From assembly GCA_017557535.1 (NCBI GenBank), contig JAFYYM010000045.1, forward strand, positions 1 to 56,783: 56,783 nucleotides of DNA, written 5' to 3'. Position 1 is the first letter of the stretch. Every line of letters starts with the position of its first letter. The DNA comes from Bacteroidales bacterium. GTDB lineage: Bacteria > Bacteroidota > Bacteroidia > Bacteroidales > UBA932. The notes beneath the pieces are model-generated. The model saw only the letters and a program-made list of their open reading frames with translations. It had not been told where the DNA came from and did not search any database. The translations under genes and the position numbers were made by a program. Positions 14,893 through 56,783 of the stretch are shown piece after piece.

Positions 14893-14914
14893 TCTTTTGA
14901 GTCTCACAATATTG

Positions 14915-14942: not shown

Positions 14943-14947
14943 TTCGT

Positions 14948-15824: not shown

Positions 15825-15846
15825 AACTACATCGTTTACTACAAAA

Positions 15847-15854: not shown

Positions 15855-15965
15855 ATGATTTTTAGCGTTACTCCCTTGTCGTTGGGGCGGAAATCATTTA
15901 CGATATGCGTTGCTTTTTAGCGTGGAATTCAGTCATTCCGGTTCTCCAATAATAGTACTATAAAA

Positions 15966-15996
15966 TTTGCAAGTTCGAAAAAAAGTAATACCTTTG
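15966..15996 (+). promoter_or_regulatory. Promoter of the TetR-efflux operon
   Basis: TTTG (15966-15969) and TACCTTTG (15989-15996) are 19 bases apart, a full consensus match. The start is expected near 16002, inside the palindrome at 16000-16013. Confidence 0.85.
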
Positions 15997-15999
15997 CAT

Positions 16000-16013
16000 T
16001 AACAAACATGTTA
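16000..16013 (+). promoter_or_regulatory. Putative operator for the TetR-family regulator
   Basis: TAACAAACATGTTA is an inverted repeat (TAACA / TGTTA, 4-base spacer) with an overlapping AACATGTT palindrome. It covers the predicted transcription start, and a further TTGTTA at 16021-16026 is complementary to TAACAA at 16000-16005. This is where an autorepressing TetR protein would bind. Binding is inferred, not shown. Confidence 0.55.
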
Positions 16014-16029
16014 GACAAAATTGTTATCT

Positions 16030-17915: not shown

Positions 17916-17918
17916 ACA

Positions 17919-30725: not shown

Positions 30726-30735
30726 TAGTTTTTCT

Positions 30736-30743
30736 TATCTTTG
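30736..30743 (+). promoter_or_regulatory. -7 element TATCTTTG for the Ig-like lipoprotein gene
   Basis: TATCTTTG lies 22 bases before ATG 30766, at a normal leader distance. No good -33 TTG. Confidence 0.55.
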
Positions 30744-30765
30744 TCAAGTACTGATCCGTATTGTT

Positions 30766-36535: not shown

Positions 36536-36540
36536 GTGTG

Positions 36541-39264: not shown

Positions 39265-42126
39265 TTGAGACCAATTTTCCGATCAGCCCTGTTCCTTGTT
39301 TTATCTGTCGCTTTCACGGCATGTTCTGGAACTTCTGAGACAAACCTTGTCTCGTATGCGGATCCCTTTGTCGGGACCGGTTTTCATGGTCATACATATC
39401 CCGGTGCCACAACCCCTTTCGGGATGGTCCAATTGAGTCCCGACACCAGGAACACGACCTGGGATGGATGTTCTGGCTACCACTACAGCGATGCTTCCAT
39501 CCTTGGCTTCTCGCACACTCATATCAGCGGCACCGGTTGCGCTGATCTCGGTGATTTTCTTTTTCTTCCTTTCATTGGGAAGGATATTCCCATAAGCCTT
39601 CCATTCTCTCATGACGACGAGAAGGCCTGTCCTGGATACTATAAGGTGGCTTTCCCTAAAGCTGGCCTTACTGTCGAGTTGACGGCGACAACCAGGGCCG
39701 GAGTTCATCGTTATACATTTAAGGGAGAAGGCGAGCGCCATGTCTTGATTGACGCCGCCTATAACATTGGTGAAACCCATCCTGACCGGATATTCATGGA
39801 TGTGGAGGGCGATTCTGTTGTCAAAGGAGGTCGCCATGTCAGCGGTTGGGCTCCTGACAGGCAGGTTTATTTCAATGCCGTTTTCTCGGTCCCGTTCTCT
39901 TCGGCGGAAAAGCTTGAAGGTGACAGGATACTTCTTACCTTCCCTGAGGCGACGACGGAAATGACTGTCTCTGTGGGGCTTTCACAAGTTGATACTGACG
40001 GCGCTGCCCGAAATCTCGCCACTGAAGTTGGTGATAAAGATTTCGACACCATACTCTCGGAGGCTTCCGATACCTGGGCTGAGGCTCTTGGGGCTATAAA
40101 GGTTGAGGGTGGTAGCAAGGAGGACAGGACCAATTTCTACTCGGCTCTTTACCACACCATGATAGTTCCTAACCGATGTGATGACGTGGATGGTCGCTAC
40201 AGGGATTTCCGTCAGGAGATCGCCACTGTGCCGGAGGAAGGGGCGTTCTATTCCACACTGTCCTTATGGGATACTTTCAGGAGCTGGAATCCGTTGATGA
40301 CGTTTATCAATGTGCCTCTTGTCAATGACATGGTGTTCAGCCTCATGGACATGGCAGAAAAGGGCGGGCGACTTCCCATGTGGCCTTTGACCAGCTCTGA
40401 CACCGAGTGCATGATAGGCTATCACGCCGTCTCGATGATGGCGGACGCTTGGCTCAATCTCCACTCTTTCGATTGTGAGGAGCCTTTCAAGGCCATGTTC
40501 ACAGCCTCCAACACGGATGCGAGCTCTGAGTCATACAACGCTTATGGGTATGTTCCCGCCAACATTCAGGCAGAGTCGGTTTCCAAGACTCTGGAGTTCG
40601 CCTACGATGATTGGTGCATCTACCGGATGGCTGAGGAATTGGGTCTTGAAGATATAGCCAATGAGTATTATTCCAGGGCGAGACGCTACACCGCCCTGTT
40701 TGATGCCTCCACCGGTTTTATGCGTGGAAGGGATTCTGAGGGCAACTGGATGCCAAGGTTCAATCCGATTGGCAGCTCCAGGGACTACACCGAGGGGATC
40801 CCTTGGCAATACCGGTTCTTCGTCCCGCACGACTTCAATGGATTGACAGCCCTTATGGGGGGCAAGGACGCCATGGTTGCCGCTCTGGATTCCTTGTTCA
40901 CATATGATGAGAGGGATCCCGGGACTGATATCGGTGATATGACAGGTCTTGTCGGGCAGTATGCCCACGGCAACGAGCCCAGCCACAATATGGCATATCT
41001 ATACAATTTCCTGGGTCAGCCGTGCAAGTCTCAAAAGCTTGTACGTCAGTTACTTAAAGAAATGTATTCTCCCACCCCTGAGGGCATCAGCGGTAATGAG
41101 GACTGCGGCCAGATGTCGGCCTGGTATGTCCTCTCGGCTCTCGGAATATATCCTGTTTGTCCCGGAACTGGTGAATATGTATTCTCGGCTCCTCTTTTCA
41201 ATAGGGCGGTCATCTCCTTGTTCGGTGAGGAGGATCTTGTCATCACTGCCGATCATCCGGAATATCCATACATCAAATCAGTCACCTTTAACGGGGAACC
41301 TATTGATGCTCAGTTTATTACTTTCGATAGACTGCGTGATGGAGGCGAGTTGGCTTTCAAGTTGTCAAAGAATCCGCTTACAGACCGGGATGATCTCCAG
41401 GCTCCTTATTCCTTGACAGCAGGTGATCAGGTCTCCATGCCTTATGTGACTGGAGATCCGGTATATTACGAAGGAGACTTTGAGGTTATGCTGCGGAGCA
41501 GGACTGAAGGAGCCACAATCAGGTACACCCTTGATGGCAGCGATCCGGACGAGAGTGCCGCTCTTTTCGAGAAACCATTCACAATCGATAGTGATATGGT
41601 TATCACCGCCAGGGCGTTTAAGGATGGGCTGGCTCCTAGCGAACAGATGAGGATACATGCTGTTCCCGCTGTTTTCTTACCTGCGGCGAAGGTGTCTGGA
41701 TTAAAGCCGGGATGTGAATACACCTACCATACAGGCCTGTTCTCCCGTACCGCTGATGTCAGGGCGAGCCGCCCTGTTTCCTCAGGGGTGATGGAATCTC
41801 CCTCGATTAAGGATGCTCCGGACGAGGATCATTTCGGATATGTGTTCACTGGGTATCTGGATATCTCCGAGGATGGCATTTGGGACTTCGCTCTCCGTAG
41901 TGATGATGGCGCCCTTTTAGAGATTGACGGAAAGATTGTGGTGGACAACGATGGTTCACATGCGGCTTTCACCGCCACCGGGCGTATTCCTTTGATGAAA
42001 GGACCTCATCCTTTCCGCCTTTCCTATCTGGAGGATTACGAGGGTCAGAGCCTTTTCTGGGCTTGGAAGTCTAAAGGGGAAGAGAAGTTTGAGAGGATAC
42101 CGAATGGTTCAGTTTGGCATAAGTAG
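39265..42126 (+). CDS. GH92 alpha-mannosidase with CHB_HEX-type and PA14-like C-terminal domains
   Basis: A 953-aa lipoprotein (lipobox VAFTACSG). The GH92 catalytic core covers residues about 30-710, with GFSHTHISGTG, HGNEPSHN and GNEDCGQMSAWYVLS. It is followed by a chitobiase C-terminal-like Ig domain (about 720-790, IRYTLDGSDPDES) and a PA14-like domain (about 810-950, LRSDDGALLEIDG), which may bind glycan. The only start giving this signal peptide is TTG 39265; a nearby ATG at 39254 is in another frame and stops after four codons. It should remove mannose residues from the locus target. First gene of the PUL-like cluster. Confidence 0.92.
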   Translation: MRPIFRSALFLVLSVAFTACSGTSETNLVSYADPFVGTGFHGHTYPGATTPFGMVQLSPDTRNTTWDGCSGYHYSDASILGFSHTHISGTGCADLGDFLFLPFIGKDIPISLPFSHDDEKACPGYYKVAFPKAGLTVELTATTRAGVHRYTFKGEGERHVLIDAAYNIGETHPDRIFMDVEGDSVVKGGRHVSGWAPDRQVYFNAVFSVPFSSAEKLEGDRILLTFPEATTEMTVSVGLSQVDTDGAARNLATEVGDKDFDTILSEASDTWAEALGAIKVEGGSKEDRTNFYSALYHTMIVPNRCDDVDGRYRDFRQEIATVPEEGAFYSTLSLWDTFRSWNPLMTFINVPLVNDMVFSLMDMAEKGGRLPMWPLTSSDTECMIGYHAVSMMADAWLNLHSFDCEEPFKAMFTASNTDASSESYNAYGYVPANIQAESVSKTLEFAYDDWCIYRMAEELGLEDIANEYYSRARRYTALFDASTGFMRGRDSEGNWMPRFNPIGSSRDYTEGIPWQYRFFVPHDFNGLTALMGGKDAMVAALDSLFTYDERDPGTDIGDMTGLVGQYAHGNEPSHNMAYLYNFLGQPCKSQKLVRQLLKEMYSPTPEGISGNEDCGQMSAWYVLSALGIYPVCPGTGEYVFSAPLFNRAVISLFGEEDLVITADHPEYPYIKSVTFNGEPIDAQFITFDRLRDGGELAFKLSKNPLTDRDDLQAPYSLTAGDQVSMPYVTGDPVYYEGDFEVMLRSRTEGATIRYTLDGSDPDESAALFEKPFTIDSDMVITARAFKDGLAPSEQMRIHAVPAVFLPAAKVSGLKPGCEYTYHTGLFSRTADVRASRPVSSGVMESPSIKDAPDEDHFGYVFTGYLDISEDGIWDFALRSDDGALLEIDGKIVVDNDGSHAAFTATGRIPLMKGPHPFRLSYLEDYEGQSLFWAWKSKGEEKFERIPNGSVWHK

Positions 42127-42147
42127 AATGACAATATAAACAACGAT

Positions 42148-44082
42148 ATGCGTAAAACACTGATAATCTTCGCCGCGGCGGTGCTATGCCTGACTCTTCA
42201 GGCTCAGCGTCCAATCGCTTATCACTCCCACAATGACTACGATCGTATAGCTCCTTTCTGGGAGGCGTATTCACAACATTGTACTTCGATTGAGGCCGAT
42301 GTGTTCCTTCAGGACGGGGAGATTCTCGTGGCTCACAACCGGGAGGATGTGAAGGCTGACCGTAGCCTGAGAACCATGTACATTGAGCCGATAGTCAAGA
42401 AGTTCCGTGAAAATGGCGGCCGAATGTGGAAAGGAAGCGATGACCTCCTTCAGCTGGTTGTCGATCTCAAGAGCTCTGATGCCCTTCCCGGAGTCGTGGC
42501 TCTCGCTGAAGAGTTTCCGGATGTGTTCGCTGGCGAGAAAGGCGTCAGGATAGTCATCACCGGTGGGTATCCCGCCCCGGCGGATTATGATAAATGGCCA
42601 TCCTGGCTTTGGTATGACGGGGACTTCACGGACGGGAAGCTCGATTATACCCCTGATCAGTTAAAGCGAATCGCGATGATCAGCACCGACTTCCGTCGTT
42701 TCGCGAGGAAATGGAACGGTAAGGGCAGGATGATTGAGTCTGAAATGGAGGCCGTTACGGCCGCCATAGAAGCTGTACATGCTATAGGGAAACCTATACG
42801 CTTCTGGGATGCGCCAGAAGGGACCACCGCTTACTTCACCTTCCACAGGCTTGGGGTGGATATATTCAATACGGACCATCCCGCCAAGTGCGCTCTTTTC
42901 TTTGATGACTGGACCAACAAGAACTTCAGGATGGGACGCCATACCGTCAAGTCTGGTGTCACCGGGACAAAGAAGCTGGACAAGGCGACCCGTGATTTCC
43001 AGGGCTTCCAGAATGAGAAGATGATGCTCGACAAGGGAATTGACGTCTATACTCCCACTTACAGGAACGACGGTTCCACCAAGAAAGTGAAGAATGTCAT
43101 ATTCCTTATCGGAGACGGTATGGGATTGAATCAGATACTGTCCGGGGCTTATGCTAACGGCCGGGACCTTTCAATGTTGAGAATGAAGAACATGGGTCTT
43201 CAGTTCTACAATCCCAATGACGATTTTATAGGGGATTCCGCTTCTGGTGGCAGTGCTTTGGCGACGGGTGAGATATCCTGGACCAGACATATCGCCTCCA
43301 ATGAGGACGGATCGGTGGAGTATCCTTCTTTGAGCGACTATTTCCACGCCCAAGGTAGGGCTGTCGGAGTTGTCACATTGGGCGACCTCGCTGACGCCAC
43401 TCCCAGTGTTTTCTATGCCCACACCGCTGAACGCGACAGTATTGACAAGGTTACTAGGTACTTGGCCACAAACAAGACCCTTGACCTTCTTGCCGGAAGC
43501 GGGACCGACTATTTCGAGGATCCCCGTGAGGAAGGTTTCGACCTTATGAATGCGATCAAGGCTAATGGATTCAACTACACACACGACGCTTTGAGCATCA
43601 GTTCCATTCCTGGCAGAGTGATTTGCGCTGACCGGAGGATGGGGGCCTATGCTCGTCAGGAGACTCTGAGTTTCCTCGCTGACATAACCAAGGAGTCCAT
43701 AGCCAAGCTCCAGAAATCCTCAAAGAAAGGATTCTTCCTGATGGTGGAGGGCGCTAAGATCGACTATGCTGGGCATTCAGACTGCCTGCCCGCCTCGATT
43801 ATTGAGACTCTGAGCTTCGATTTGGCTGTGGCAGAGGCACTTAAGTTCGCTGATAGCAACGGTGAGACACTTGTTGTGGTGACTGCGGACCACGAGACCG
43901 GAGGGCTTACCATTCTTGATGGGGATCTTGCCACCGGTCACGTGCTGGCCATATACAATTCAGACGACCACACCCCGCTCGCTCTGCCGGTGTTCGCTTA
44001 TGGGCCCGGATCACAGGAATTCAAGGGTACTTATATGAATTACGACATCGCGCGAGCGATAAAACGGATAGTTAAGAAATGA
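42148..44082 (+). CDS. Fusion: PLC/GDPD-like phosphodiesterase + alkaline phosphatase
   Basis: A 644-aa secreted protein (signal ending LQAQ). The N-terminal domain (about residues 20-270) resembles the PI-PLC/GDPD TIM-barrel superfamily: YHSHNDY, IEADVFLQDGE and LVAHN supply the His, Glu-x-Asp and His expected for catalysis. The C-terminal domain (about 310-640) is an alkaline phosphatase: FLIGDGMG, nucleophile Ser364 in GDSASGGSALATG, EGAKIDYAGHS and TADHETGG. Such a fusion could cleave a phosphodiester and then remove the remaining phosphate. It follows GH92 and overlaps the GH63-like gene by four bases. Confidence 0.88.
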   Translation: MRKTLIIFAAAVLCLTLQAQRPIAYHSHNDYDRIAPFWEAYSQHCTSIEADVFLQDGEILVAHNREDVKADRSLRTMYIEPIVKKFRENGGRMWKGSDDLLQLVVDLKSSDALPGVVALAEEFPDVFAGEKGVRIVITGGYPAPADYDKWPSWLWYDGDFTDGKLDYTPDQLKRIAMISTDFRRFARKWNGKGRMIESEMEAVTAAIEAVHAIGKPIRFWDAPEGTTAYFTFHRLGVDIFNTDHPAKCALFFDDWTNKNFRMGRHTVKSGVTGTKKLDKATRDFQGFQNEKMMLDKGIDVYTPTYRNDGSTKKVKNVIFLIGDGMGLNQILSGAYANGRDLSMLRMKNMGLQFYNPNDDFIGDSASGGSALATGEISWTRHIASNEDGSVEYPSLSDYFHAQGRAVGVVTLGDLADATPSVFYAHTAERDSIDKVTRYLATNKTLDLLAGSGTDYFEDPREEGFDLMNAIKANGFNYTHDALSISSIPGRVICADRRMGAYARQETLSFLADITKESIAKLQKSSKKGFFLMVEGAKIDYAGHSDCLPASIIETLSFDLAVAEALKFADSNGETLVVVTADHETGGLTILDGDLATGHVLAIYNSDDHTPLALPVFAYGPGSQEFKGTYMNYDIARAIKRIVKK

Positions 44083-45683
44083 GACGAATCCTTATTACAA
44101 CCGCCTTAATGGCGCTTTGCGCGGCTGGAATATCGGCCCAGGACCTCAAGTCCGGACCGTATGACCTCCCGTACAAGAACACCTATGTCAAGAATATCTT
44201 CGTCTCGGAGAACTCTTTCCGGACGATGAAGCCGGAGACAAAGTCTCCCAAATCTTTCAAGGAGGCGCAGAAGATTCTTCCATCTCCTATATGGGAGGGC
44301 CATGAGAAGGAGATTGAGATGTACTGGCATGCCTGGAAGATCGCTGTCGGCAACATCCGACAGCCTCAGGAGGGCTCAGGCTTCGTCTCCCCGTATCTTG
44401 ATGTCGCTTACAACGGGAATATATTCATGTGGGATGATTCTTTCATGATGATGTTCGCCCGTTACGGGTACCGTTTCTTCCCATTCCAGAGGACGCTGGA
44501 TAATTTCTACGCCAAGCAGCACCAAGATGGTTTCATCTGCCGGGAGATCCGCGCGGATGGCTCCGACTGCTTCGAGCGCTACGATCCCACTTCCACTGGC
44601 CCCGATCTTCTGCCGTGGGCTGAATTGCTGTATTACAAGCAGTTCGGGGATATCGACAGGCTCCATAAGGTGTTCCCAGCCCTTGTGGCTTACGCCCAGT
44701 GGTGGAAGCTCAACCGCACTTGGAAGGACGGAACCTACTGGTCCAGCGGCTGGGGTACCGGTATGGACAACATGCCCCGCGTCCCGGAAGGATATAACCA
44801 GATATTCTCCAACGGCCACATGACGTGGCTGGACACCAACCTCCAGCAATATCTTGTGAACGACTGCCTTATGCAGATCGGATTCTACATCGAGCGCTGG
44901 CAGGAGATAGAGGAGATGGAGGATGAGATGAAGTTCCTGAAGAAGTGGATAAACGAGAATATGTGGGATGAGGAGACAGGTTTCCTGTACGATGTCTATG
45001 GAGATGGAAGTCGCAACTCCACAAAGGGTATCTCCGCTTTCTGGGCTCTCAAGACAGATGTCCTGGACAAGGATAAATTGGATCGCGTTGTGGCTCATCT
45101 GTCGGATGAGAAAGAGTTCTCAAGAGTCCACAGGGTGCCTTCTCTCTCGGCCGACCATCCGAAGTACAACCCGAAGGGCCGTTACTGGCAGGGTGGGATC
45201 TGGCCCGGAGCCAACTATATGGTAATCAGTGGTCTTTGGGAGAGAGGATATCGCAAGGAGGCTATGGAGATTGCCTGCAACCACTTCGACAATGTGTTCA
45301 AAGTCTGGCAGGACACCGGCACTTTCTGGGAGTATTACTCGCCGGAGGAGACCGCTCCCGGCTTTATGGCGCGCAAGGATTTTGTCGGTTGGACAGGCCT
45401 TCCGCCGATCGCCGTTTTCATCGAATATATACTCGGCATCCGTTCTGACTTCAGCGAGGGCAAGGTTGAGTGGGATGTCCACAATCTCGAGGCTCACGGC
45501 ATCGACAGGTACCCGTTCGGCCCTGAGGGAGTCGTGTCTCTCAAGACAGCCTCCCGTAAAACCCCTTCTGACAAACCAGTCATCACAGTAACCACAAATA
45601 TTCCTTTTGATTTCACCGTGACGTGGGGAGACGGACAGACCGCTACCGTCCATGTTGAAAAAAGCGGCAAGGTAACACTTTAG
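44079..45683 (+). CDS. GH63/MGH1-like (alpha/alpha)6 glycoside hydrolase
   Basis: A 534-aa secreted protein (signal ending ISAQ) with an (alpha/alpha)6-barrel pattern. Key segments include FMWDDSFM, SGWGTGMDNMPR (probable acid Asp), GGIWPGANYMV and TFWEYYSPE (probable Glu), as in GH63 and related mannosylglycerate hydrolase-like enzymes of clan GH-G. GH63 enzymes release alpha-glucose, for example from glucosylated high-mannose N-glycans, and some act on glucosyl- or mannosylglycerate. Substrate unproven. It overlaps the phosphatase fusion (ATGA) and lies 12 bases before the ROK gene. Confidence 0.82.
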   Translation: MRRILITTALMALCAAGISAQDLKSGPYDLPYKNTYVKNIFVSENSFRTMKPETKSPKSFKEAQKILPSPIWEGHEKEIEMYWHAWKIAVGNIRQPQEGSGFVSPYLDVAYNGNIFMWDDSFMMMFARYGYRFFPFQRTLDNFYAKQHQDGFICREIRADGSDCFERYDPTSTGPDLLPWAELLYYKQFGDIDRLHKVFPALVAYAQWWKLNRTWKDGTYWSSGWGTGMDNMPRVPEGYNQIFSNGHMTWLDTNLQQYLVNDCLMQIGFYIERWQEIEEMEDEMKFLKKWINENMWDEETGFLYDVYGDGSRNSTKGISAFWALKTDVLDKDKLDRVVAHLSDEKEFSRVHRVPSLSADHPKYNPKGRYWQGGIWPGANYMVISGLWERGYRKEAMEIACNHFDNVFKVWQDTGTFWEYYSPEETAPGFMARKDFVGWTGLPPIAVFIEYILGIRSDFSEGKVEWDVHNLEAHGIDRYPFGPEGVVSLKTASRKTPSDKPVITVTTNIPFDFTVTWGDGQTATVHVEKSGKVTL

Positions 45684-45695
45684 TAAATTTACTTT

Positions 45696-46529
45696 ATGAG
45701 AATCGCTATTGATCTCGGCGGAACCAATGTGCGTGTGGCAACCGTCCTTCCCAATGGGAACATAGGCAGGATTGTCTCTGAGCCCACTTTGTCCAGTGGC
45801 AGTGAGCGTGTGGTTTTGGAGCAGCTGTTCCGTTTAATTGACACCCTGATAACCCCTGATGTGGATGGGATAGGAATCGGGGTCCCTTCAGTTGTCAACA
45901 CCGAAGAGGGCATAGTCTACAATGTGGTTGGCATCCCTTCCTGGCAAGAGGTACACTTGAAAGAGATCCTTGAAGACAGGTATCATGTTAATGTCGCTAT
46001 AGACAATGACTGTAATTGCTTCGCTCTCGGAGTGACTCGTTTCGGCAAGGATGGCCCCCACAAGGAGGCTTTCTGCGCCACTCTTGGTACTGGTGTGGGC
46101 GGTTCGTTAGTAGTTGATGGGAGGCTTTACCGCGGGCGCAATGCTGGGGCTGGGGAGATAGGTAGCATACCTTATCTTGACAAGGATTATGAGTATTACT
46201 GCAGCAGCCGTTTTTTCGTGGGAAAAGGAACCACAGGAAAGGATGCCGCCATCGCGGCCGCGGGAGGGGATTCTGAGGCTTTGGCCATAATGGATGAATT
46301 CGGTGGACATATCGGCAAACTGGTCCAGATGATCATGTTCGCCTATGATCCTTCCGTAATCATCCTAGGTGGTAGCATCGCCAAGGCTTTCCCTTTATAT
46401 AGCGAACCTATGTGGCGGATTATCAATGAGTTCCCCTATCCTAAGAGTGTGGAGAACCTCAATCTTTACGCCACCGACCTGGATCATCCCGGAATTCTTG
46501 GCGCCGCCCTTCTCTGCGGAGAGTTATAG
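45696..46529 (+). CDS. ROK family sugar kinase
   Basis: A 277-aa cytoplasmic kinase. The ATP-binding motif DLGGTNVRVA, the catalytic Asp in AIDNDCNC, and GTGVGGSLVVDG are typical of ROK kinases. The usual zinc motif (CxCGxxGC) is replaced by a segment reading EYYCSSRFF, a variant I recall in Bacteroidota members. It would phosphorylate the monosaccharide released by the locus, mannose or glucose. It is the only cytoplasmic enzyme in the cluster. Confidence 0.9.
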   Translation: MRIAIDLGGTNVRVATVLPNGNIGRIVSEPTLSSGSERVVLEQLFRLIDTLITPDVDGIGIGVPSVVNTEEGIVYNVVGIPSWQEVHLKEILEDRYHVNVAIDNDCNCFALGVTRFGKDGPHKEAFCATLGTGVGGSLVVDGRLYRGRNAGAGEIGSIPYLDKDYEYYCSSRFFVGKGTTGKDAAIAAAGGDSEALAIMDEFGGHIGKLVQMIMFAYDPSVIILGGSIAKAFPLYSEPMWRIINEFPYPKSVENLNLYATDLDHPGILGAALLCGEL

Positions 46530-46530
46530 T

Positions 46531-46558
46531 TTGTCATTCCGGACGAAGTTAAGAATCT
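46531..46558 (+). repeat. Degenerate extragenic repeat (GTCATTCCG...GAATCT type)
   Basis: TTGTCATTCCGGACGAAG...AAGAATCT resembles the short extragenic repeats of the form GTCATTCCGAGCGAAGCGAGGAATCT seen in many bacteria. It begins one base after the ROK stop. A related unit lies at 55149. Confidence 0.45.
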
Positions 46559-46571
46559 AATAACCATCAAT

Positions 46572-48299
46572 ATGAAACGAATCCTCCTTCTGGCGTTACT
46601 GCCTCTTCTGACTTTTTCCTGCAAGAATGATAAAGCGTCCGTCGAGACACTCCCTGTCATGTCCTTCAATGTCCGTTACGGCACTGCTGATGATGGTGAC
46701 AATATATGGGAGAATCGCCGCGATGCCGCCTGCGCGATGATCTTGGATCAGAGGCCGGCTGTTTTTGGAGTCCAGGAAGCTCTTGATTTCCAATTAGATT
46801 ACTTTGTGGAGAAATGCCCTGGCTACAAATGTGTCGGAGTTGGCCGTGAGGATGGTATCCACGATGGTGAGCATATGTCTGTGTTCTATGACACGGATCG
46901 GATCGAGTTGAGAGAGTGGGGGACCTACTGGCTTTCAGAGACACCTTTTGAGCCATCCCTGGGGTGGGATGCGGCATGCCGCCGCACGGCCACCTGGACC
47001 TTGCTATATGACAAAGCGGCCGACCGTTCTTTCTATTTCGTGAACACCCATCTAGACCATGTCGGTAGGGAAGCGAGACGTAAAGGTCTGCTCCTTTTGG
47101 TCGACCGTATAGGCGCTATGAATCCGGATGGCTATCCGATGATTCTCACAGGTGACATGAATGTCATTCCAGAGGATCCTTGCCTTACCGAACTCCGCAA
47201 CCTTATGTCCGACGCGCGCCAGACAGCTCCGGAGACTGACAATGAGGTCACCTGGCACGACTGGGGCAAGATCACGAGCGGCAAGCCTATTGACTATGTG
47301 TTTTATTCAGGCTTCGAAGGATGCGATAAGTTCGAGGTTATCCGTCAGGCTTATCCAGGCGCTCCTTTTGTCTCCGACCACTATCCGGTGAAGGCTATTC
47401 TTCATTATGGAGCGGCTCCCGAGGTGAAGAAGGTCGAACCGGTGGCTGAGGCTCCCAAGTATATCGTCGATGTGGAGGCCCATAGGGGCGGAATGGGGCT
47501 TTATCCCGAGGAATCCCTCCCGGCGATGCTCAACTCCGTCAAGTTGGGCGTCAACACCCTTGAGATGGACCTTTGTGTCACTAAGGACAAAAAGGTCATC
47601 CTTTCCCATGATAAATACTTCCATCCCCGTTACTCAACCCGTCCGGACGGAACGCCGGTTTTGGGCGGTGATCCTAAGACGTATCTTTATCACTTGCCCT
47701 ATAGCGAGGTGGCAAAATGGGATGTGGGAATCAAATACAATCCAGGATGGCCCGAGAAGCACTGTATGCCAGTCTGTAAACCCATCGCTTCAGAGGTTAT
47801 TTCAGCTGTTGAGGCATGGACAAAGGAGAATGGACACTATCCGATGCATTATGACATTGAGATCAAGAGTGATCCTGATTACGATGGCGGTGTCGAAGGC
47901 GTGGATTGGCCTGAGTATCATGAATACACAGACCTCTGTATGGCGATGATGGAATCTCTGGGACTCGGTGACCGCCTGATGATCCAGTGTTTTGATGAGA
48001 GGGCTCTGAATTATATTAACGAGAAGTATCCCGGTCACACTCTCGCATTCCTTGTGGAGGGCTGGGAGACGGATTTCGACCAGTATATGGCTCTTCTGAA
48101 CTTCACTCCACAGTGGCTTAGCGCCCCCCATGAGAATGTTGATAAAGCCCTTGTTGAGAAGGCTCATGCCAGAGGTATGAAGGTTAATACCTGGACGGTG
48201 GACGATCCTGATGAGATGAGACGTCTTATCGCAGCCGGAGTCGACGCCATCATCTCCAACTATCCCGATCGCCTGTTGCAAGTCGTTAAAGAGTATTGA
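46572..48299 (+). CDS. Fusion: EEP phosphatase/phosphodiesterase + glycerophosphodiester phosphodiesterase
   Basis: A 575-aa lipoprotein (lipobox LLTFSCK). The N-terminal EEP domain (about residues 28-280) has [29 protein letters not shown] and SDHYPVKA, so its metal and catalytic residues are complete. The C-terminal GDPD domain (about 298-572) has [22 protein letters not shown] and LSHDKYF, again complete (His-Arg, Glu-x-Asp, His). The protein should carry two different phosphoesterase sites on the cell envelope. It fits a role in stripping phosphate-linked groups from the imported or surface-bound glycan. No close functional match is recalled for this pairing. Confidence 0.9.
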
Positions 48300-48392
48300 T
48301 TTAAAGTAACCCAATGTCACAAAACCGGGGAGTTTTGCGCGTTTTGGGAAAAGTAATACGCAAATTGACGCGATTGAAGAAAACCGTTTTTA

Positions 48393-48400
48393 TAACTTTG
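48393..48400 (+). promoter_or_regulatory. -7 element TAACTTTG upstream of susC
   Basis: TAACTTTG lies 82 bases before ATG 48483. TTG occurs at 48374-48376 and 48365-48367, with spacings of 16 and 25 bases, neither ideal. The gap 48300-48482 holds nothing else recognisable. Confidence 0.5.
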
Positions 48401-48482
48401 CTTGTTACTTATGCGGTATTGTGGGTTTTTACGAACACTAATTGAACACTATATTTTTACCAAACCAATTAATTATCAAAAC

Positions 48483-51400
48483 ATGTTTTCCAAGAAGCTA
48501 TTCTGCGTGGTTGCTATGCTGATTATCAGTGTAGCGGCAAGTTTTGGTGTTTACGCCCAGAACGTGACAGTACGCGGAACCGTCAAGGATGCGACCGGCC
48601 CGGTTGTGGGAGCGGTTGTGCTCAGCGGCGGAGCTAACGCTGTCACGGATGTGAATGGAAACTATTCCATTACAGTTCCCTCGAACGCTGTTCTTGAGGT
48701 TTCGTGTCTAGGTTATCAGACCCAGAACGTCAACGTCAACGGCCGTTCAGTTATCGACGTCGTCCTTTCTGAGGATGTCGAGATGCTCCAGGAGGCTGTC
48801 GCCCTCGGTTACGGTGCCCAAACCAAGAAGAAGGACCTGTCCGCTTCTGTAGGTATTGTATCCAATCCCGAGAAGCTCGCTGGCCGTCCTGTCACTTCGA
48901 CGACCGGTATGCTCCAGGGCCAGATCCCTGGTGTGGTCGTTTCCTATTCCAATGGTTCGCCTACCAGCGGCCCTGGCATCCTCATCCGTGGACAAGGTTC
49001 CCGTAATGGTGATGGTGTTCTCTGGGTTGTTGATGGTGTCCCTGGTGGTCCTATCACTTCCATGAATGACATTGAGAGCATCGTAGTCCTTAAGGATGCT
49101 GCCTCCGCCGCTATCTACGGAGCCTCCTCTGGAGCTGGCGGTGTTATCATCGTCACGACCAAGAAGGCAGGCAACGGTATCCATGTCGAGTATGACCTCG
49201 TCACCGGTATCCGCCACGCCAGCAACCTTCCCGAGTGCCTCACCGCTGAGGAGGAGATCCAGATGAGGACCATTTCCTCCAAAAACGCTGGGATCACCCT
49301 TGACACAGGTTAGAATCCTGAGATCAACCCTTGGATCGCTACCACTCGCACCGACTGGATGGACGAGATTTTCCGTGACGCGCTCTATCAGCGTCACACC
49401 GCCACTCTGAACTATGGTACTGACGCTCTTAAGAGCCGTCTGACCTTCACCTTCAGCGACAACCCCGGAGTTCTGGTGGGAACATACTCCCGTAGCTTGG
49501 GTGTCCGTTACAATGGCCAGTACCAGATGAACAAGTGGCTCAAGATCACCGAGAACATCCACTTCGGTGACGGCAAGAGCCGCGGTACTGACACTGGTTC
49601 CAGCCACACCGGAACCATCCTCTCAGCTCTCTATATGCCGCCGTCCGCTGAGGCTTACGCCACCGCGGGACCTTACGCCGGTTCATTCGGTGGTACCACG
49701 ACCGAGGATCCCGAATATGTCGCCAAGTATGGTAACAACTTCGCCGGTCTTCACGGTGACGCCGTGAACCCCCTGCGTTTGTTGCTCGCTGACACTTCCT
49801 ATGGCCACAGCATCAGCTTCTGGTCCACGACCGGAATCGAGATCGCCAACATCGTCAAAGGTCTCAAGTTCCTCGACCAGTTCTCATACAACGTGGGTCA
49901 GGGTATAAGCAAGAACTTCACTCCGAAGCGTCCTGAGATCGGTAAGCCCAGCCTCACCAACTCTTTGAGTGAGAGCGCCAGCCGCAGCGACTCTTGGCGT
50001 AACGAGGCCACCCTCACCTACGACCGCACCTTCGGCAAGCACACTGTCGGAGCTCTCGGCGCTGTCACCATTAACAGGCAGTGGGGCCGTGGATTCGGAG
50101 TAAGCGCATCTTCCTTCGACATCGAGGCGCCTTCCATGCAGTATATGGCTTTCGCAGGCAGCTACGGTATTCCTACCGACTACTACAGCGGTCCTGACGC
50201 CAACATCGCTTTCGTTGCCCGTGGATCATACAGCTTCGATGACCGTTATTTCTTCACCGCCTCCTGGCGTCGTGATTACGCCGGCCGTCTGCCTCTTGGA
50301 CACAACTATGGCGACTTCCCGGCCGTGACCGGTGCTTGGAAAATCTCCAGCGAGCCTTTCTTCCCGAAGAGTGACAATATCAACCTCGTTAAGGTTCGTG
50401 CTTCCTGGGGCCGCGTTGGTAACCTGGGTTCCATCGGTTGGAACTACAAGTCCCCGACCCTCAGCCAGATGGGAGACAACACCGATAACAGGATGGCTGG
50501 ACGTGAGCTCGGTGGCCAGATGAGAGGTATCACCTGGTCCCTCACAACCGCTTTCAACCAGGAGCTGACCTGGGAGACCTCGGAGCAGACCGACCTCGGT
50601 CTCGATATCGACCTCTTCAGGGATCGCCTGTCGATGTCCCTCGACCTCTACAATAAGAAGACCTTCAACCTTATCCAGGACCAGACCATGGAATGGCCGA
50701 CCTACATGGGAATTAACCCTAGGAAGATCAACCTCGGTGAGATCAACAACCGTGGTATCGAGTTCGTCGCTACCTGGAGAGACAAGGTTGGCAAGGACTT
50801 CAGCTACTATGTGACAGGTAACATCGCTTACAACCGCAACCGTGTCATCAACACCGGTGTGTTCGACTCAGAAGGTAATTCCGCCCCTTGGGTTGGTGGT
50901 GGCGGCTACGGTCTTGAGACCACAGCCATCTACCGCAGCGAGGTAGGCCAGCCTATCAACTCTTTCTATATGATTCCTTACGAGGGTATATTCCAGAGCA
51001 TTGAGGATATCTGGGATCATCAGAAGGATGGCAAACTCATCCAGCCTGGTGCCCGTCCGGGAGACCTCAAGTTCACCGATGTCAATGGTGACGGAAAGAT
51101 CAACACTGACGACCGTGTCTATCTCGGCAATCCTACCCCTACTCACACCTTCGCTCTTTCCGGAGGCTTCACTTGGAAGAACTTCAATGTCGATGTGATG
51201 CTCCAGGGTGTGGCCGGCAATAAGATCGCCTATATGGCCAAGCAGCTCATCCTCGCTGATGTCGAGGGTAACTTCAGCCGCGCCAAGGAGATCCTCAACG
51301 CTTGGAGTGAGACCAACCGTGACTCCACCATTCCTCTCCTCTCCAGGAACGATCCCAACCAGAACCTCGCTACACCTTCCGGTTGGTATCTCGAGGATGG

Positions 51401-51629
51401 TAGCTACCTCAGGCTCAAGAACTTGACCATTGGCTACGACATTACCAAGGCCATGCGCAAGATCCCTCACTTCGCTGAGAGGAACTCTTCCTGCAACATC
51501 TACTTCTCCGGTGAGAACATGTTCACTCTCACCAAGTACTCCGGAATGGATCCTGAGGTCGGTGGCTACGATACCCTGACCTACCCGGTCCACAAGATTT
51601 TCGCCTTCGGTGTTAAACTCAACTACTAA
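48483..51629 (+). pseudogene. susC: SusC-type TonB-dependent glycan transporter, interrupted by an in-frame TAG
   Basis: The frame runs from ATG 48483 for 1048 residues with one TAG at 49311-49313 (codon 277, TLDTG-stop-NPEINPW); the frame before and after is the same. Upstream are a signal peptide (VYAQ), a carboxypeptidase-regulatory-like domain (about residues 25-100) and the TonB plug (VDGVPGG, KDAASAAIYGASSGAGGVIIV). Downstream is the 22-strand barrel ending FAFGVKLNY. Most likely a Tyr codon became TAG. TAG ends many other genes here, so recoding is unlikely. Unless suppressed or an error, the product is a 276-aa plug fragment. Confidence 0.9.
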
Positions 51630-51635
51630 TGAATA

Positions 51636-51640
51636 GGAGG
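51636..51640 (+). promoter_or_regulatory. Shine-Dalgarno sequence deciding the SusD start
   Basis: GGAGG lies 9 bases before ATG 51650. An earlier in-frame ATG at 51629 overlaps the SusC stop (TAATG) and would put seven charged residues before the signal peptide, so 51650 is preferred. Confidence 0.65.
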
Positions 51641-51649
51641 ACAACACAT

Positions 51650-53356
51650 ATGAAAAAGTACATATATATAGCTTTTGCGGCTCTTTGCGCTTTGACTCTT
51701 GCCTCTTGCGACGATTTCTTGGGTTATTCATCCCAGGGAGCTCCCGCACAGGACAACTTCTTCCTTTCGGACGATCAGGCCAACGGCGCTATTGAGAACT
51801 GCTACTACGGCCTCTTCGAGAGGGACGGAATGTTCAGCCGTGAGATCTATTGGGAGCAGGGTTGCGCCAATGATATGGTATGGGGCAAGACCCGTGGTTT
51901 CAATAATCTCGCCACCCTCACCTACAACGGCAATGAGTCTCCTCTGCTTGACTCATGGAACAGGATTTATAACCGTTACGGTATCCCCAAGGCCAACTGG
52001 GTGATCATGTCTCTCCTTAACAAGCAGGCTGACAAAGGACTTACCCCTGTTGAGACCAGAGTTCTGGGCGAGGGTTATTTCCTCCGCGCGCAGTACCATC
52101 TGCTCGCCGCCTACCGTTACGGCACAAAGGAACTCGGTGTTCCCTTCGTGGCTTACGAGGATGTTGAGGGTGGTTACAACTATACCATTCCTCCGCAGCT
52201 TCCTTCTGTGACTGACAACTACGCCTATATCGTCTCTGACCTCAAGAAGGCTGAGGAACTTCTCCCTCGCCTGGAGGAATACGGCGCTATTGACCGCGGC
52301 CGCGCCCACAAGGCTTCCGCCGCCGCTTTGATGGCGAAGGCTTACGCTTACTGGGCTATGTGGGACAGCTCTCAGTGGTCTAATGTCATCGAGTGCGTCA
52401 ACCGTTTGGAGAGCTCCTACGGACGCGGACTTGTGGACAACTATTCCGACCTCTTCTCCCCGGATTACAGCAAGGGCTTCTACAATAAGGAGTACTGCTG
52501 GGGTATCCCCGGATCAGGTGGCGCTGACTACACTGGTAACGGTGGAGTCGAGCTCCCTGGTGTTATGCTTGAGGACAAGGGCTGGGGCAAGTTCAATGGC
52601 TGGGGCCAGATCAAGCCTTCCTATGACCTCTACGAGGAGATGGCCAAGGATAACGACGACACCAACGGTGACGGTAAATCTGACTATCAGGACACCAAGA
52701 ACGTCCGTTTGGCCACCACTATCCTGGAATACAACGATGAGTTCCAGTATTTCGGTGAGACCATGCGTTTCTACTCACCCGTGAACATCGAGGCCGGTTT
52801 CCAGTGCAACAAGTACATGCAGGCATTCGCTCCTGCCAATCCTATTGCCGCCGGCACCCTTCTTGACAACGGTAACTGGCCTGTCACCAAGGTCATGTGG
52901 CATATCGTCAGGTTCGCTGACTGCTTGCTGCTCCGCGCCGAGGCCAACCTCGCCCTGGGCAATGCCGCCGCTGCCGCGACTGACATCAACAAGGTTCGTG
53001 TCCGTTCGAAACTGAAGCCTCTCGCCGGTCCCGCTACCTGGACTGACCTGTATCACGAGCGCCGTTGCGAGCTCGCTTTCGAGTTCGCCGCCGACCATGC
53101 TTTCGACTGCAAGAGGTGGGCTGTCTCTGGTGCCTCTGAGATCAAGGCTCTTGCCATCAATGAGCTGAACTCCCATCCGAGGGTCCGTATTTACGACGAC
53201 CGTATGGATCCGGAATCCAACTATGTGATCGGTCCTTATCAGGATTACATGTCCCCTGTCAAGGTTTGGAGAGACCAGTGTCTCACCTTCCCTTATCCTA
53301 CCGACGAAATCACCAAGGCGAACGGAGCTCTCCAGAATCCTCCGTCCTGGCGATAG
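51650..53356 (+). CDS. susD: SusD/RagB family surface glycan-binding lipoprotein
   Basis: A 568-aa lipoprotein (lipobox TLASCDD). SusD features include the N-terminal half with TPR-like helices (LGEGYFLRAQYHLLAAYRYG) and the C-terminal RagB/SusD segment DCLLLRAEANLALGNAAAA, DINKVRVRS and LYHERRCELAFE. It caps the SusC barrel and binds the oligosaccharide. Intact, in contrast to SusC. It overlaps or abuts SusC, as in nearly all such pairs. Codons are strongly biased, consistent with high expression. Confidence 0.95.
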   Translation: MKKYIYIAFAALCALTLASCDDFLGYSSQGAPAQDNFFLSDDQANGAIENCYYGLFERDGMFSREIYWEQGCANDMVWGKTRGFNNLATLTYNGNESPLLDSWNRIYNRYGIPKANWVIMSLLNKQADKGLTPVETRVLGEGYFLRAQYHLLAAYRYGTKELGVPFVAYEDVEGGYNYTIPPQLPSVTDNYAYIVSDLKKAEELLPRLEEYGAIDRGRAHKASAAALMAKAYAYWAMWDSSQWSNVIECVNRLESSYGRGLVDNYSDLFSPDYSKGFYNKEYCWGIPGSGGADYTGNGGVELPGVMLEDKGWGKFNGWGQIKPSYDLYEEMAKDNDDTNGDGKSDYQDTKNVRLATTILEYNDEFQYFGETMRFYSPVNIEAGFQCNKYMQAFAPANPIAAGTLLDNGNWPVTKVMWHIVRFADCLLLRAEANLALGNAAAAATDINKVRVRSKLKPLAGPATWTDLYHERRCELAFEFAADHAFDCKRWAVSGASEIKALAINELNSHPRVRIYDDRMDPESNYVIGPYQDYMSPVKVWRDQCLTFPYPTDEITKANGALQNPPSWR

Positions 53357-53383
53357 TTTGATGACTTTAAAAAGATATAAAAT

Positions 53384-55138
53384 ATGAAAAAGATATTTTA
53401 CGTGATTATGGGAGCCGCCCTTCTTCTTCTCGCCGGTTGTGAGGAGAAAGGAGAAGTGTTCTACCAGAATCCTTACAGGGTTATCGTCGACTACCTGCCT
53501 TCGACATTCACGATCAATGGAATCTCCGGCAATGTGACCCCTGATGATAACTACGACTGGATCATCTCAAACGGTGGCGGTAGCTTCACCGTGAGGCGTA
53601 ATACCACCGGTTTGATCCGCCGCGCCGAGTTCACCATCTCCGGAACCAAAGATAAGGCGATTGTCAACCAAAGGGCCCACGGCCTGGACGGAAAGGTCGC
53701 TTCCACCATGGTTAATAAAGACGGTGACGCCCAGACCGCGGACATGAAGGTCTCGGTATCCACAGGTAATCCTGACGATTATGAGTCATGGGGTTATATC
53801 TTCGGATCCAGCCAGGATATGTCCGCCAACAAGGATTACCCTCAGGGCAAATTCTCCTTGGATGACAAGACTGTCAGCTTGACTGGTGTCGATCCTGAAG
53901 CGAACTACTATTTCTGGTCCTATATCGTTTCCACTGAGGGCGACAAGATCTATTCAAGCGTTTTCGGAATTTCGAAGCCCGTTCCCGTACGTGCCGGAGA
54001 AGACCTTCAGGCCGCTATCAATTCCGCCCAGGAATTCGCCGAGCTTCGTGTTGAGGGAGGCCAGGTTTATGATGGTCCTATCTTCCTCCGCGACAATGTG
54101 AAAGTCTCCGGTGGATGGAATTCCACTTTCGATAAGCAGGATCTGAATAACCGTACCGTCATTGACGGAGGCGGTAAGAAGCGTTGCGTTATCTCCGGTA
54201 TCACCGCTGACGGAAACCGTCCTGGTGCCAAGAATGCCTGCCTCAATGGTTTTGAGGTCCGTAACGGTCTTGGCTCCGGTATAGTTTTCAACGGTAAACT
54301 GACTGTAGAGTATTGCTATGTCCATAATTGCTCCAACTCTGACAAGGGTGGCGGTATCATGGCTACGGAGGCTCCTGGCGACGAGCTCGTTCTCGCCAAC
54401 AGCATCATCGCCTGGAACAAGGCTGATGCCCATGCCGGCGGTGTGAGTGTCTCTGGTTCCGGTACCAAGGTTACTGTTGTCAACACTCTCTTCAGGGGCA
54501 ACGCCTCCATCGCCCAGTATGGTTACACCGCCGCCATCCATGGCCAGGCCGGTGTCCAGGCTTATGTGGCCAACTGCACCTTCGTGGACAATGTGAACTG
54601 GCGTGACGGTAGTTCCGCGACTTCGTCCCCTTGGAGCTGCATCATGTTCCGTAACGGTGGTACCCACATCGAGTTCGTGAACAATCTGGTCGCCGGTAAC
54701 TGGTACTTCCTGCCCGGTGTGGCCGACAAACCTGACGAGCATCCCGACCGTTATGACATGCCGATCAAGCCCGAGTATATTCTTGAGCAGCAGGTTCAGC
54801 AGTGTGATATGAATGTCATGGGCGGTGACGATCCTAACTGGGTCTTCCAAAGCAACGTCATCTGCGGCGCTTCGGCCAGCAACTTCATCGGCCGTGCCGG
54901 TAACGGTGCCGCCCAGAATAAGGCCCAGGAAGCCTGTACCTTCGTTCAAAACGATGACTTCAAGACTGTTTTCGTCAATTATGACGGTGGCGACTTCCAT
55001 CCGGCCGGTCCTGCTTTGACCACCGGAGAGGCAAGTTCCAAGGTCAGTGACATTCTTGGAAACTACAATACCGATCTTGATGGCAAGCCCCGTTACACTG
55101 CCGGTAAGATCAACGTAGGCTGCTACCAGGCCCAGTGA
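53384..55138 (+). CDS. Beta-helix lipoprotein, putative surface glycan-binding protein
   Basis: A 584-aa lipoprotein (lipobox LLLAGCEE). An N-terminal part with Ig/BACON-like beta sequence (about residues 25-200) is followed by a right-handed parallel beta-helix (about 205-470) with repeats such as GNVSV-like turns, VIDGGGKKRCVISG, NGFEVRNGLGSGIVFNG and YCYVHNCSNSDKGGG. No lyase or esterase catalytic set can be assigned with confidence. Its place after SusD is where PULs usually encode a surface glycan-binding protein. A lyase or esterase role is an alternative. It shares the SusC/D codon bias and ends before a strong terminator. Confidence 0.82.
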   Translation: MKKIFYVIMGAALLLLAGCEEKGEVFYQNPYRVIVDYLPSTFTINGISGNVTPDDNYDWIISNGGGSFTVRRNTTGLIRRAEFTISGTKDKAIVNQRAHGLDGKVASTMVNKDGDAQTADMKVSVSTGNPDDYESWGYIFGSSQDMSANKDYPQGKFSLDDKTVSLTGVDPEANYYFWSYIVSTEGDKIYSSVFGISKPVPVRAGEDLQAAINSAQEFAELRVEGGQVYDGPIFLRDNVKVSGGWNSTFDKQDLNNRTVIDGGGKKRCVISGITADGNRPGAKNACLNGFEVRNGLGSGIVFNGKLTVEYCYVHNCSNSDKGGGIMATEAPGDELVLANSIIAWNKADAHAGGVSVSGSGTKVTVVNTLFRGNASIAQYGYTAAIHGQAGVQAYVANCTFVDNVNWRDGSSATSSPWSCIMFRNGGTHIEFVNNLVAGNWYFLPGVADKPDEHPDRYDMPIKPEYILEQQVQQCDMNVMGGDDPNWVFQSNVICGASASNFIGRAGNGAAQNKAQEACTFVQNDDFKTVFVNYDGGDFHPAGPALTTGEASSKVSDILGNYNTDLDGKPRYTAGKINVGCYQAQ

Positions 55139-55148
55139 TGATCCGACA

Positions 55149-55183
55149 GTCATCCTGAGGTAGCTTCAGCGACCGAAGGACCT
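55149..55183 (+). repeat. Degenerate extragenic repeat (GTCATCCTGAG...GAAGGACCT type)
   Basis: GTCATCCTGAGG, CAGCGACCGAAGGACCT resembles the same repeat family as 46531-46558 (GTCATyCyGAGCGnAGCGAAGGATCT). It can form a weak hairpin. It lies between the beta-helix gene and the terminator. Confidence 0.45.
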
Positions 55184-55192
55184 GAATAAAAG

Positions 55193-55229
55193 CAGGGACG
55201 GACCGTTTGGCCCGTCCCTGTGTTTTTAT
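55193..55229 (+). terminator. Rho-independent terminator after the SusC/D/beta-helix genes
   Basis: CAGGGACGG (55193-55201) pairs perfectly with CCGTCCCTG (55212-55220) around a 10-base loop, followed by TGTTTTTATT. Confidence 0.88.
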
Positions 55230-55266
55230 TTAAGAACCAAGGGTTTGAATACAGGAATTAATTCTG

Positions 55267-55274
55267 TAAATTTG
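55267..55274 (+). promoter_or_regulatory. -7-like element TAAATTTG next to the third GH92 gene
   Basis: TAAATTTG ends 3 bases before ATG 55278. If used, the transcript would start at or inside the start codon. No -33 partner at the normal spacing. Confidence 0.35.
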
Positions 55275-55277
55275 GAT

Positions 55278-56783
55278 ATGTATAAATCCAAGAGTTTTCT
55301 CGCCCTTGCGATCGCGGTTTTTGCCGCCTTTTCATGCTTCCATGACAAAGAACCCGTAATGGAGGTCAACCCTTTCATCGGGACGGCTCTGGACGGGCAC
55401 ACCAGTCCCGCTGCCAGCGCCCCGTTCGGCTTGGTGCAGCTGGGGCCGGACACAGTGGATGGAGGAGTGGCCGGCTATCATGACAAAGACAGCCTCATCC
55501 TTGGCTTCTCCCATACCCATCTGAGCGGTACCGGCCAGGGGGATCTCGGAGATTTCCTCTTTGTACCGGTTATCGGGGAAGTGCCTCAGGATGAGGATGG
55601 TTTCGCGGTCCAGCCGCTTCCTTTCTCCCATAAGGACGAGCAGGCGCACGCGGGGTATTACCGTGTCAAGTTCCCTTCACTCGGCATCGTAGCCGAGATG
55701 ACAGCTTTGTCGCACACCGGTTGTCATCGCTATACTTTCTCTGGAAAAGGTAAGAGGAGTATTCTGGTGGACATGAGGCACAATGTCGGGAATACAAGGC
55801 CAGACAGCATATTCTTCCGGAAAGTTTCGGACAACCGGATAGTGGGAGGCCGCCACGTGAAAGGATGGGCTCCGGACCGCTGGGTGTATTTCTCCGCCCT
55901 TTTTTCCGTTCCATTCTCGGACTGCGTCTCGGATGGTCATGACAGTTATCTTCTTACTTTCCCTGAAGACACGAAGCAGGTCACCATCAGTGTCGGCCTT
56001 TCCTCCGTTGATGCGGAAGGCGCTGAGAATAACCGTCTTGCGGAGATTCCGGAAACCGATTTCGATGGCGCTTTACGAGCCTCTGAAGCGGCATGGAACT
56101 CCAGTCTGGGCAGAATCGCCGTGGAAGGAGGAACCAAGGAACGCCGTGAGGTTTTCTACACAGCACTTTACCACAACTTTGTCGTTCCTAACCAGATGGC
56201 AGACCTCGACGGCCGTTACAAGAACCATTTCGGGGAAGTCAAGACCGCCCCTGCGGGAGAGGGCTTCTATTTCCCTCTGTCCCTCTGGGACACCTTCCGC
56301 AGTTGGAACCCTCTGATGACTCTGCTGGAGCCTGACCTTGTGAATGGTATGGTGTTCAGCATGCTGGACATGTACGACTTGAACGGGCAACTGCCACTCT
56401 GGCCGCTTTGGGGAGACGAGGTGGACTGCATGATAGGCTACCATGCGGTCTCGGTGATCGCTGACGCCTGGCTCCGGGGGATAGCCGGTCAGGCCGGCTA
56501 TGACGGGGAGAGGATGCTTAATGCCATGATCGCTACCTCGAACTCCTACCCCGCCACGGACTGGTACAACCACTACGGCTACATCCCCTGCGACCTCACC
56601 CCCCAGTCCGTCTCGATGACCCTTGAATACGCCTACGACGATTGGTGCATAGCCCGTATGGCGGAGTCGCTCGGTCACGCTGATATAGCCGCTGAATATG
56701 ACACCAGGGCACTCAGCTACAGGAATATCCTGGATACTTCGACAGGATTCTTCCGTGGAAAGGACTCCGACGGCAACTGGAGA
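55278..56783 (+). CDS. GH92 family alpha-mannosidase, N-terminal part (cut by window end)
   Basis: The first 502 residues of a GH92 lipoprotein (FAAFSCF lipobox). N-domain motifs ASAPFGLVQLGPD and GFSHTHLSGTGQGDLGDF and the central SLWDTFRSWNPLMT, LPLWPLWGDEVDCMIGYH are clear. The frame is open to the last base; the catalytic GNEPSH and GNEDxGQMSAW region lies beyond the window. It is closer to the 39265 enzyme than to the 232-2448 enzyme in these segments. It has its own start after a terminator, so it may be a separate transcription unit of the same locus. Confidence 0.93.
   Translation, partial: MYKSKSFLALAIAVFAAFSCFHDKEPVMEVNPFIGTALDGHTSPAASAPFGLVQLGPDTVDGGVAGYHDKDSLILGFSHTHLSGTGQGDLGDFLFVPVIGEVPQDEDGFAVQPLPFSHKDEQAHAGYYRVKFPSLGIVAEMTALSHTGCHRYTFSGKGKRSILVDMRHNVGNTRPDSIFFRKVSDNRIVGGRHVKGWAPDRWVYFSALFSVPFSDCVSDGHDSYLLTFPEDTKQVTISVGLSSVDAEGAENNRLAEIPETDFDGALRASEAAWNSSLGRIAVEGGTKERREVFYTALYHNFVVPNQMADLDGRYKNHFGEVKTAPAGEGFYFPLSLWDTFRSWNPLMTLLEPDLVNGMVFSMLDMYDLNGQLPLWPLWGDEVDCMIGYHAVSVIADAWLRGIAGQAGYDGERMLNAMIATSNSYPATDWYNHYGYIPCDLTPQSVSMTLEYAYDDWCIARMAESLGHADIAAEYDTRALSYRNILDTSTGFFRGKDSDGNWR

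Follow-up and report, generated by a model that had tools for sequence, protein, structure and literature searches.

Glycans carrying phosphate are present in fungi, protists and animals, and polysaccharide utilization loci (PULs) for yeast alpha-mannan were reportedly described in Bacteroides thetaiotaomicron by Cuskin et al. in 2015. PULs as such, and mannan PULs with phosphatases, are already known; the yeast alpha-mannan PULs of B. thetaiotaomicron and the phosphatases of its mannan pathway are treated in PMC10154615. A PUL with several different phosphoesterases was not found in the literature by title or opening abstract, in a search whose coverage left out most subscription journals. 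Here, a 56,783-nucleotide stretch of a rumen-type Bacteroidales gut bacterium (assembly GCA_017557535.1, contig JAFYYM010000045.1; hereafter the window) was analyzed, which is the whole of contig C23 in a genome of 3.38 Mb, 139 contigs and 95% completeness. The end of this contig is a Sus-type PUL, in which Pfam and NCBIfam identified adjoining SusC and SusD genes together with carbohydrate-active enzymes. Judging from its gene content, the locus probably serves the uptake and breakdown of a short glycan that contains alpha-mannose and carries both phosphodiesters and phosphomonoesters, and the removal of phosphoesters is likely coupled to that of mannose.

All genes of the locus lie on the plus strand. 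The first, GH92a (39265-42126), encodes a lipoprotein-like putative exo-alpha-mannosidase with CHB_HEX_C and PA14 domains (PF07971, 543 bits; PF17678, PF13290 and PF07691). It is followed by a fusion (42148-44082) of a GDPD-superfamily, PLC-like domain (approximately residues 20-260) to an alkaline phosphatase (approximately residues 310-640; PF00245, E 7.7e-45), the stop codon of which overlaps the ATG of the next gene. This gene (44079-45683) encodes an MGH1-like or GH63-like glycoside hydrolase with a signal peptide (PF22422, E 1.5e-30; PF03200), the anchor of the locus class. A ROK-family sugar kinase (45696-46529; PF00480, E 3.6e-36) precedes a second, lipoprotein-like fusion (46572-48299) of an EEP domain (approximately residues 30-275) to a GDPD domain (approximately residues 300-566), matched by PF03372 and PF03009 and by the structures 3g6s, 4c1r and 3ch0. 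Next come SusC (48402-51629; TIGR04056), broken by an in-frame TAG, a SusD-like lipoprotein (51629-53356; PF07980, PF14322), a further lipoprotein and the N-terminal part of GH92b (55245-56783; PF17678, PF07971 1-258), cut by the contig end. The two GH92 enzymes, the GH63-like enzyme, the ROK kinase and the SusC/D pair named in the sequence-only reading were thereby all recovered by Pfam and NCBIfam at or near the places where it had put them. Its two fusions, said to hold a PLC/GDPD-like domain, an alkaline phosphatase, an EEP domain and a GDPD, were borne out as well, the PLC-like part through the relation of its aligned members and their profile to GDPD.

Matches of the GH63-like enzyme at E 1e-60 or better were collected; of 393 genomes searched in the order 20 had one, as did 17 of 395 searched in the phylum, with the window's own genome and G059 in both sets. 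The enzyme is a sparse marker and a recognizable anchor gene. Near matches with 57-75% identity were present in 11 other genomes (G368, of the window's genus, G133, G372, G205, G059, G289, G339, G272, G238, G303 and G690), ten of which belong to the order and represent seven of its families, among them that of the window, while G690 belongs to the same class outside the order. The remaining 27 GH63-like matches, with 34-51% identity, served as controls, and all loci were fetched, at 20 kb at most or 35 kb for L049 and L050 together. Domain hidden Markov models (HMMs), seeded from hits in the loci collected up to that point, both near and control ones, were scored at 60 bits. Among the 11 near loci they detected alkaline phosphatase in nine, the PLC-like domain in eight (in L120 as an open reading frame (ORF) of 119 codons at 73 bits), EEP in six, calcineurin-like phosphoesterase (MPE) in six, GH92 with PA14 in nine, SusC and SusD in nine, GH125 in four and ROK in four. 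With Pfam, L117 and the G303 locus were each found to hold a calcineurin-like enzyme as well, bringing that family to eight of the 11, and L148 added a ROK to G303. Absences are weak in the short contigs L118, L125, L126, L131 and L157. At least one phosphoesterase was found in 11 of 11 near loci versus none of the 27 control loci, even when the threshold was lowered from 60 to 20 bits; GH125 was likewise missing from all 27 controls, and GH92 was found in a single one (L159). If the loci were independent, the 11:0 versus 0:27 split of phosphoesterase presence would arise by chance once in 1,203,322,288, a figure that kinship makes less extreme. The association of phosphoesterases with near GH63-like loci is much stronger than chance.

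In closer relatives, nine loci of named genomes matched the first fusion at 79-97% identity. These genomes, all Bacteroidales or Bacteroidia, include RUG579, RUG790 and RUG13086, names that we read as rumen genomes, and others from yak rumen, goat omasum and water buffalo omasum. In all nine loci, a GH92 gene precedes the fusion and a GH63-like gene follows it, and in all six that extend far enough, ROK and then EEP come next. EEP and GDPD share one ORF in L068, L069 (cut), L071 and L074, whereas L072 has EEP without GDPD and L067 ends too early to show either arrangement.

The phosphoesterase domains were joined to each other and to other genes of the locus in several ways. The PLC-like domain is fused to alkaline phosphatase in the window, L049, L114 and L115, and L116 encodes a single ORF of 1128 codons (10626-14009) that combines PLC-like, alkaline phosphatase, calcineurin-like and PA14 domains. 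In L127, an ORF of 1281 codons (13943-17785) has SusD at its N terminus and alkaline phosphatase at its C terminus. Fusions of MPE to EEP occur in L054 and L060, two reduced loci with no anchor gene in the fetched stretch; the former holds alkaline phosphatase, SusC, SusD and the MPE-EEP fusion, the latter GH92-PA14, MPE-EEP and GH125, and a third such locus, L150, holds SusC, SusD, GH92-PA14 and EEP. Furthermore, the calcineurin-like enzymes share their PA14 type with GH92. Such repeated re-fusion would be expected of enzymes performing successive steps on one substrate. As a separate observation, the calcineurin-like gene of L114 (G368, same genus) is followed by a GH20 gene (11920-13566) and a large RHS/DUF6443 protein (13573-19899).

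The locus very probably continues on another contig of the same genome, C71. The GH92 C terminus with which C71 begins shares 87% and 78% identity with the GH92b copies of the close relatives L144 and L147, compared with 59% for GH92a and 48-49% for the third GH92. About 60 profile positions are missing between the two parts. Beyond the GH92 end, C71 encodes a GH130-like protein as well as a phosphoesterase of the calcineurin-like type; L144 and L147 have genes of both kinds, in this order, after their GH92b orthologue, with another GH92 between them.

The catalytic and ligand residues expected for each of the phosphoesterase families were conserved. In the alkaline phosphatase, the nucleophile serine and the metal ligands are present, and D323, S364, D416, T418, E534, D539, H543, D581, H582 and H608 were invariant in 10 of 10 orthologues; EEP motif residues were invariant in 12 of 12 sequences and GDPD motif residues in five of five. 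The PLC-like domain of the window had no Pfam match. Its aligned members matched GDPD_2 in eight of 12 cases (best E 5.4e-12) and GDPD in five of 12 at E<=5, and their profile matched that of GDPD (93.6%, E 2e-7), so the N-terminal domain of the first fusion was assigned to the GDPD superfamily. Two histidines and an ExD pair were invariant in 12 of 12 sequences. Against the PDB, the PLC-like domain alone gave no real match and its profile gave weak ones, GDPDs included (best E 0.069). The calcineurin-like domain alone had no PDB match; its profile matched purple acid phosphatases and phosphohydrolases weakly (best E 5.2e-4). Predicted models of the first fusion and the GH63-like enzyme, with mean predicted local distance difference test scores of 34.9 and 40.5, were too low for use.

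The EEP domain belongs to the same family as the solved mannosyl-6-phosphatase 4c1r, the B. thetaiotaomicron protein BT3783 (E 5.9e-34 over residues 27-199). In an EEP tree of 31 rows with a midpoint root, of which the branching alone was used, the sequences of L121, L118, L119, L115, L060, L038, L040 and L042 fell into one fork with 3g6s, L044 and L047 (91/91, not starred); L038, L040 and L042 are the PUL copies of L049, L054 and L055, L044 comes from the reduced locus L150, and GH92 was not found in the surroundings of L047 (L151). The window EEP grouped elsewhere in the tree, with L030 of the same genus (100/98). Because it branches apart from the EEPs of the other loci, the window EEP seems to have been acquired independently in its lineage, which speaks for a function that requires an enzyme of this kind.

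For the GH92 enzymes, the loop sequences bear on linkage. The best-scoring solved relatives of GH92a were, in order, 6f8z (BT3130), 7zgm and 6f91, the last of which we take to be BT3965 from matching residue numbers. In the literature, alpha-1,2 activity of GH92 is tied to a His-Glu pair in the 580-loop (PMC12858847, PMC5930347) and also to a DED motif (PMC12858847). The loop was located through BT3965 residue numbers in a GH92 alignment, in which no alpha-1,2 sequence was present as a positive control, and in the 23 loops from the locus class that could be read, no His-Glu pair was found and NED stood in place of DED. Five copies gave no readable loop (window GH92b, L142, L146 and one each in L144 and L147). 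The genome contains 13 GH92 matches over the cut-off, two of which are probably the halves of GH92b, and the others that were read also lacked His-Glu; one further GH92 gene lies at the opposite end of the contig (232-2448, minus strand). Alpha-1,2-mannosidase activity was considered for these enzymes and dropped for want of the His-Glu/DED signature. According to PMC5930347, BT3130 acts weakly on alpha-1,3 linkages but its preference is uncertain, and BT3965 is an alpha-1,4-mannosidase for which the paper itself raises glycosylphosphatidylinositol (GPI). The loop signature and the likeness to BT3130 and BT3965 point to an alpha-1,3, alpha-1,4 or mixed activity of the GH92 enzymes.

On this basis, a pathway can be proposed for the locus. 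SusD and the adjacent lipoprotein would bind the glycan and SusC would import it; the GDPD-superfamily domains, with the calcineurin-like enzymes of C71 and the relatives, would open phosphodiesters, and alkaline phosphatase and EEP would strip the resulting phosphates, a fusion of phosphodiesterase to phosphatase being suited to pass on the phosphomonoester product. GH92 and the GH63-like enzyme, with GH125 in relatives, would remove sugars singly, and the ROK kinase would phosphorylate the freed hexose. A mannose-containing glycan is suggested by GH92 in nine and GH125 in four of the 11 near loci. The kinase capture proposed in the sequence-only reading is plausible; a CxCGxxGC motif was absent from the window ROK and from four of five tested ROKs of related loci, present only in that of L120. 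Several findings weigh against this account of the locus. GDPD was detected in none of the 11 near loci, the window SusC carries a stop codon, and the nearest solved structure to the GH63-like enzyme is a distant one (best E 5.5e-11, 7r6j), which makes its sugar a guess; it also scored under all NCBIfam cut-offs. In addition, 4c1r was placed in a separate EEP branch with L051 (95/88), so that its specificity is not transferable to the window EEP, and orthology of the two was rejected. The earlier proposal of a mannose-rich glycan with phosphodiesters gained from the joint retention of mannosidase and phosphoesterase genes in close relatives, in seven families and in one genome outside the order, and from the conserved catalytic residues.

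Fungal phosphomannan is one possible, tentatively held target, and phosphorylated N-glycans are considered with it; from such a glycan, mannose-phosphate caps would be opened and removed before the mannose is trimmed. The family relationship of EEP to 4c1r agrees with this, as do the alpha-1,3-type motifs of GH92, the GH125 of four near loci, the GH130-like proteins on C71, L144 and L147 and the GH20 of L114; phosphatases are also described for the mannan pathway of B. thetaiotaomicron in PMC10154615. However, no GH76 exceeded the cut-off in the window's own genome (best 20.0 bits, cut-off 25.9) or in nine of 14 genomes with this or a related locus, the five with GH76 being G368, G133, G372, G205 and G272. 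This weakens bulk yeast mannan as the target, and the position of EEP outside the 4c1r branch also counts against the phosphomannan or N-glycan reading. No endo-acting enzyme was seen in the window's locus either: GH76, GH99, GH38 and endo-N-acetylglucosaminidase were absent among its Pfam-scanned genes, the scan for GH99 and GH38 being confined to locus genes.

An unlikely target is a GPI anchor or some other mannose glycan linked to phosphatidylinositol, from which the PLC-like domain would free inositol phosphate, the calcineurin-like enzyme would remove ethanolamine phosphate and exo-mannosidases would trim the short mannose chain. GPI cores need an alpha-1,2-mannosidase, the signature of which is lacking in the 23 loops. 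The weak matches of the calcineurin-like domain, confined to purple acid phosphatases and phosphohydrolases, argue in the same direction. In favour of such a target are the GDPD/PLC-superfamily domain and the calcineurin-like enzymes (HMM or Pfam), each in eight of the 11 near loci, the GH125 of four, the exclusively exo-acting hydrolases and the resemblance of the GH92s to the BT3130/BT3965 group, with GPI raised for BT3965 in PMC5930347. Equally doubtful is the broader proposal of a Bacteroidales-wide PUL class for GPI anchors or for the phosphodiester-linked mannose glycan of another glycolipid. Its signature would be a GH63-like enzyme with a new specificity, and its phosphoesterase domains, of up to five types, would have been fused again and again in step with the successive bonds of one substrate. 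Even less probable is a phosphorus-scavenging set settled beside a mannose locus and supplying phosphate from phospholipid head groups rather than taking part in glycan breakdown, for although matches are widespread within the order, in 151 of 198 genomes for P0001 (mostly its alkaline phosphatase part) and in 99 of 198 for P0002, and the window EEP lineage has members outside such loci, the phosphoesterases are kept with GH92-PA14 in nine of 11 near loci and absent from the 27 controls, alkaline phosphatase is fused to SusD in L127, and the calcineurin-like enzymes bear the same PA14 type as GH92.

The interrupted SusC consists of two ORFs in one frame, separated by the TAG at 49311-49313, and TIGR04056 matches both (model 1-245 and 278-980; NCBIfam). 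Recoding of this TAG was considered and dropped, since susC is a single uninterrupted ORF in the relatives L142, L144 and L147; it is broken differently in L146. The TAG may be a real null allele or an assembly consensus error. A tyrosine-recombinase gene lies beside susC in three close relatives (L142, 1337-2257; L144, 10570-11850; L147, 6778-8431), and two of these, L144 and L147, have inverted repeats of 47-48 bases at the susC start. In L144/L068 the block of susC, susD and the lipoprotein gene is inverted, and a relic ORF in L147 joins a susC start to the end of the lipoprotein. Together, the recombinase, repeats and inverted block look like invertible or shuffling susC/D DNA; an inverted repeat at the susC start was searched for in the window and none was there.

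Among the other genes, the lipoprotein between SusD and GH92b (53384-55138) appeared parallel beta-helix-like by eye and had no match in Pfam or NCBIfam; its orthologues follow SusD in G786 and G787 with 80-81% identity. An OstA-like gene (36538-39171) precedes GH92a in the window and in seven of seven close loci that reach that far, and was placed outside the locus. Farther upstream, two ORFs rich in Big_2 Ig-like domains (26404-28515 and 30475-32745), on opposite strands, flank NlpC/P60 and radical SAM genes.

A recurring locus with an anchor gene amounts to a defined enzyme set to assay, and might turn out to be a PUL whose substrate is a mannose glycan rich in phosphodiesters; it also gives a concrete test case for the suggestion, made in PMC5930347, that some GH92 enzymes act on GPI. 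Compared with the yeast alpha-mannan PULs of B. thetaiotaomicron, the locus class shares SusC/D, GH92, GH125 (in the window's relatives) and an EEP-family phosphatase. It differs in that the window locus has no GH76, GH99 or GH38 among the scanned genes, in carrying phosphoesterase domains of three to five types where the yeast-mannan PULs have a single type, and in its phosphodiesterase-phosphatase fusions and GH63-like enzyme. The EEP domain has the same fold family as 4c1r, whereas the window copy is fused to GDPD and sits on another branch of the tree. GH92a resembles BT3130 and BT3965, as described in PMC5930347, in lacking the His-Glu loop and having the NED motif, but adds CHB_HEX_C and PA14 domains and is adjoined by phosphoesterases. 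Finally, the GH63-like enzyme of the window matches the MGH1-like and GH63 hydrolases over the cut-off in both PF22422 and the GH63 C-terminal domain, and stands distant from their solved members.

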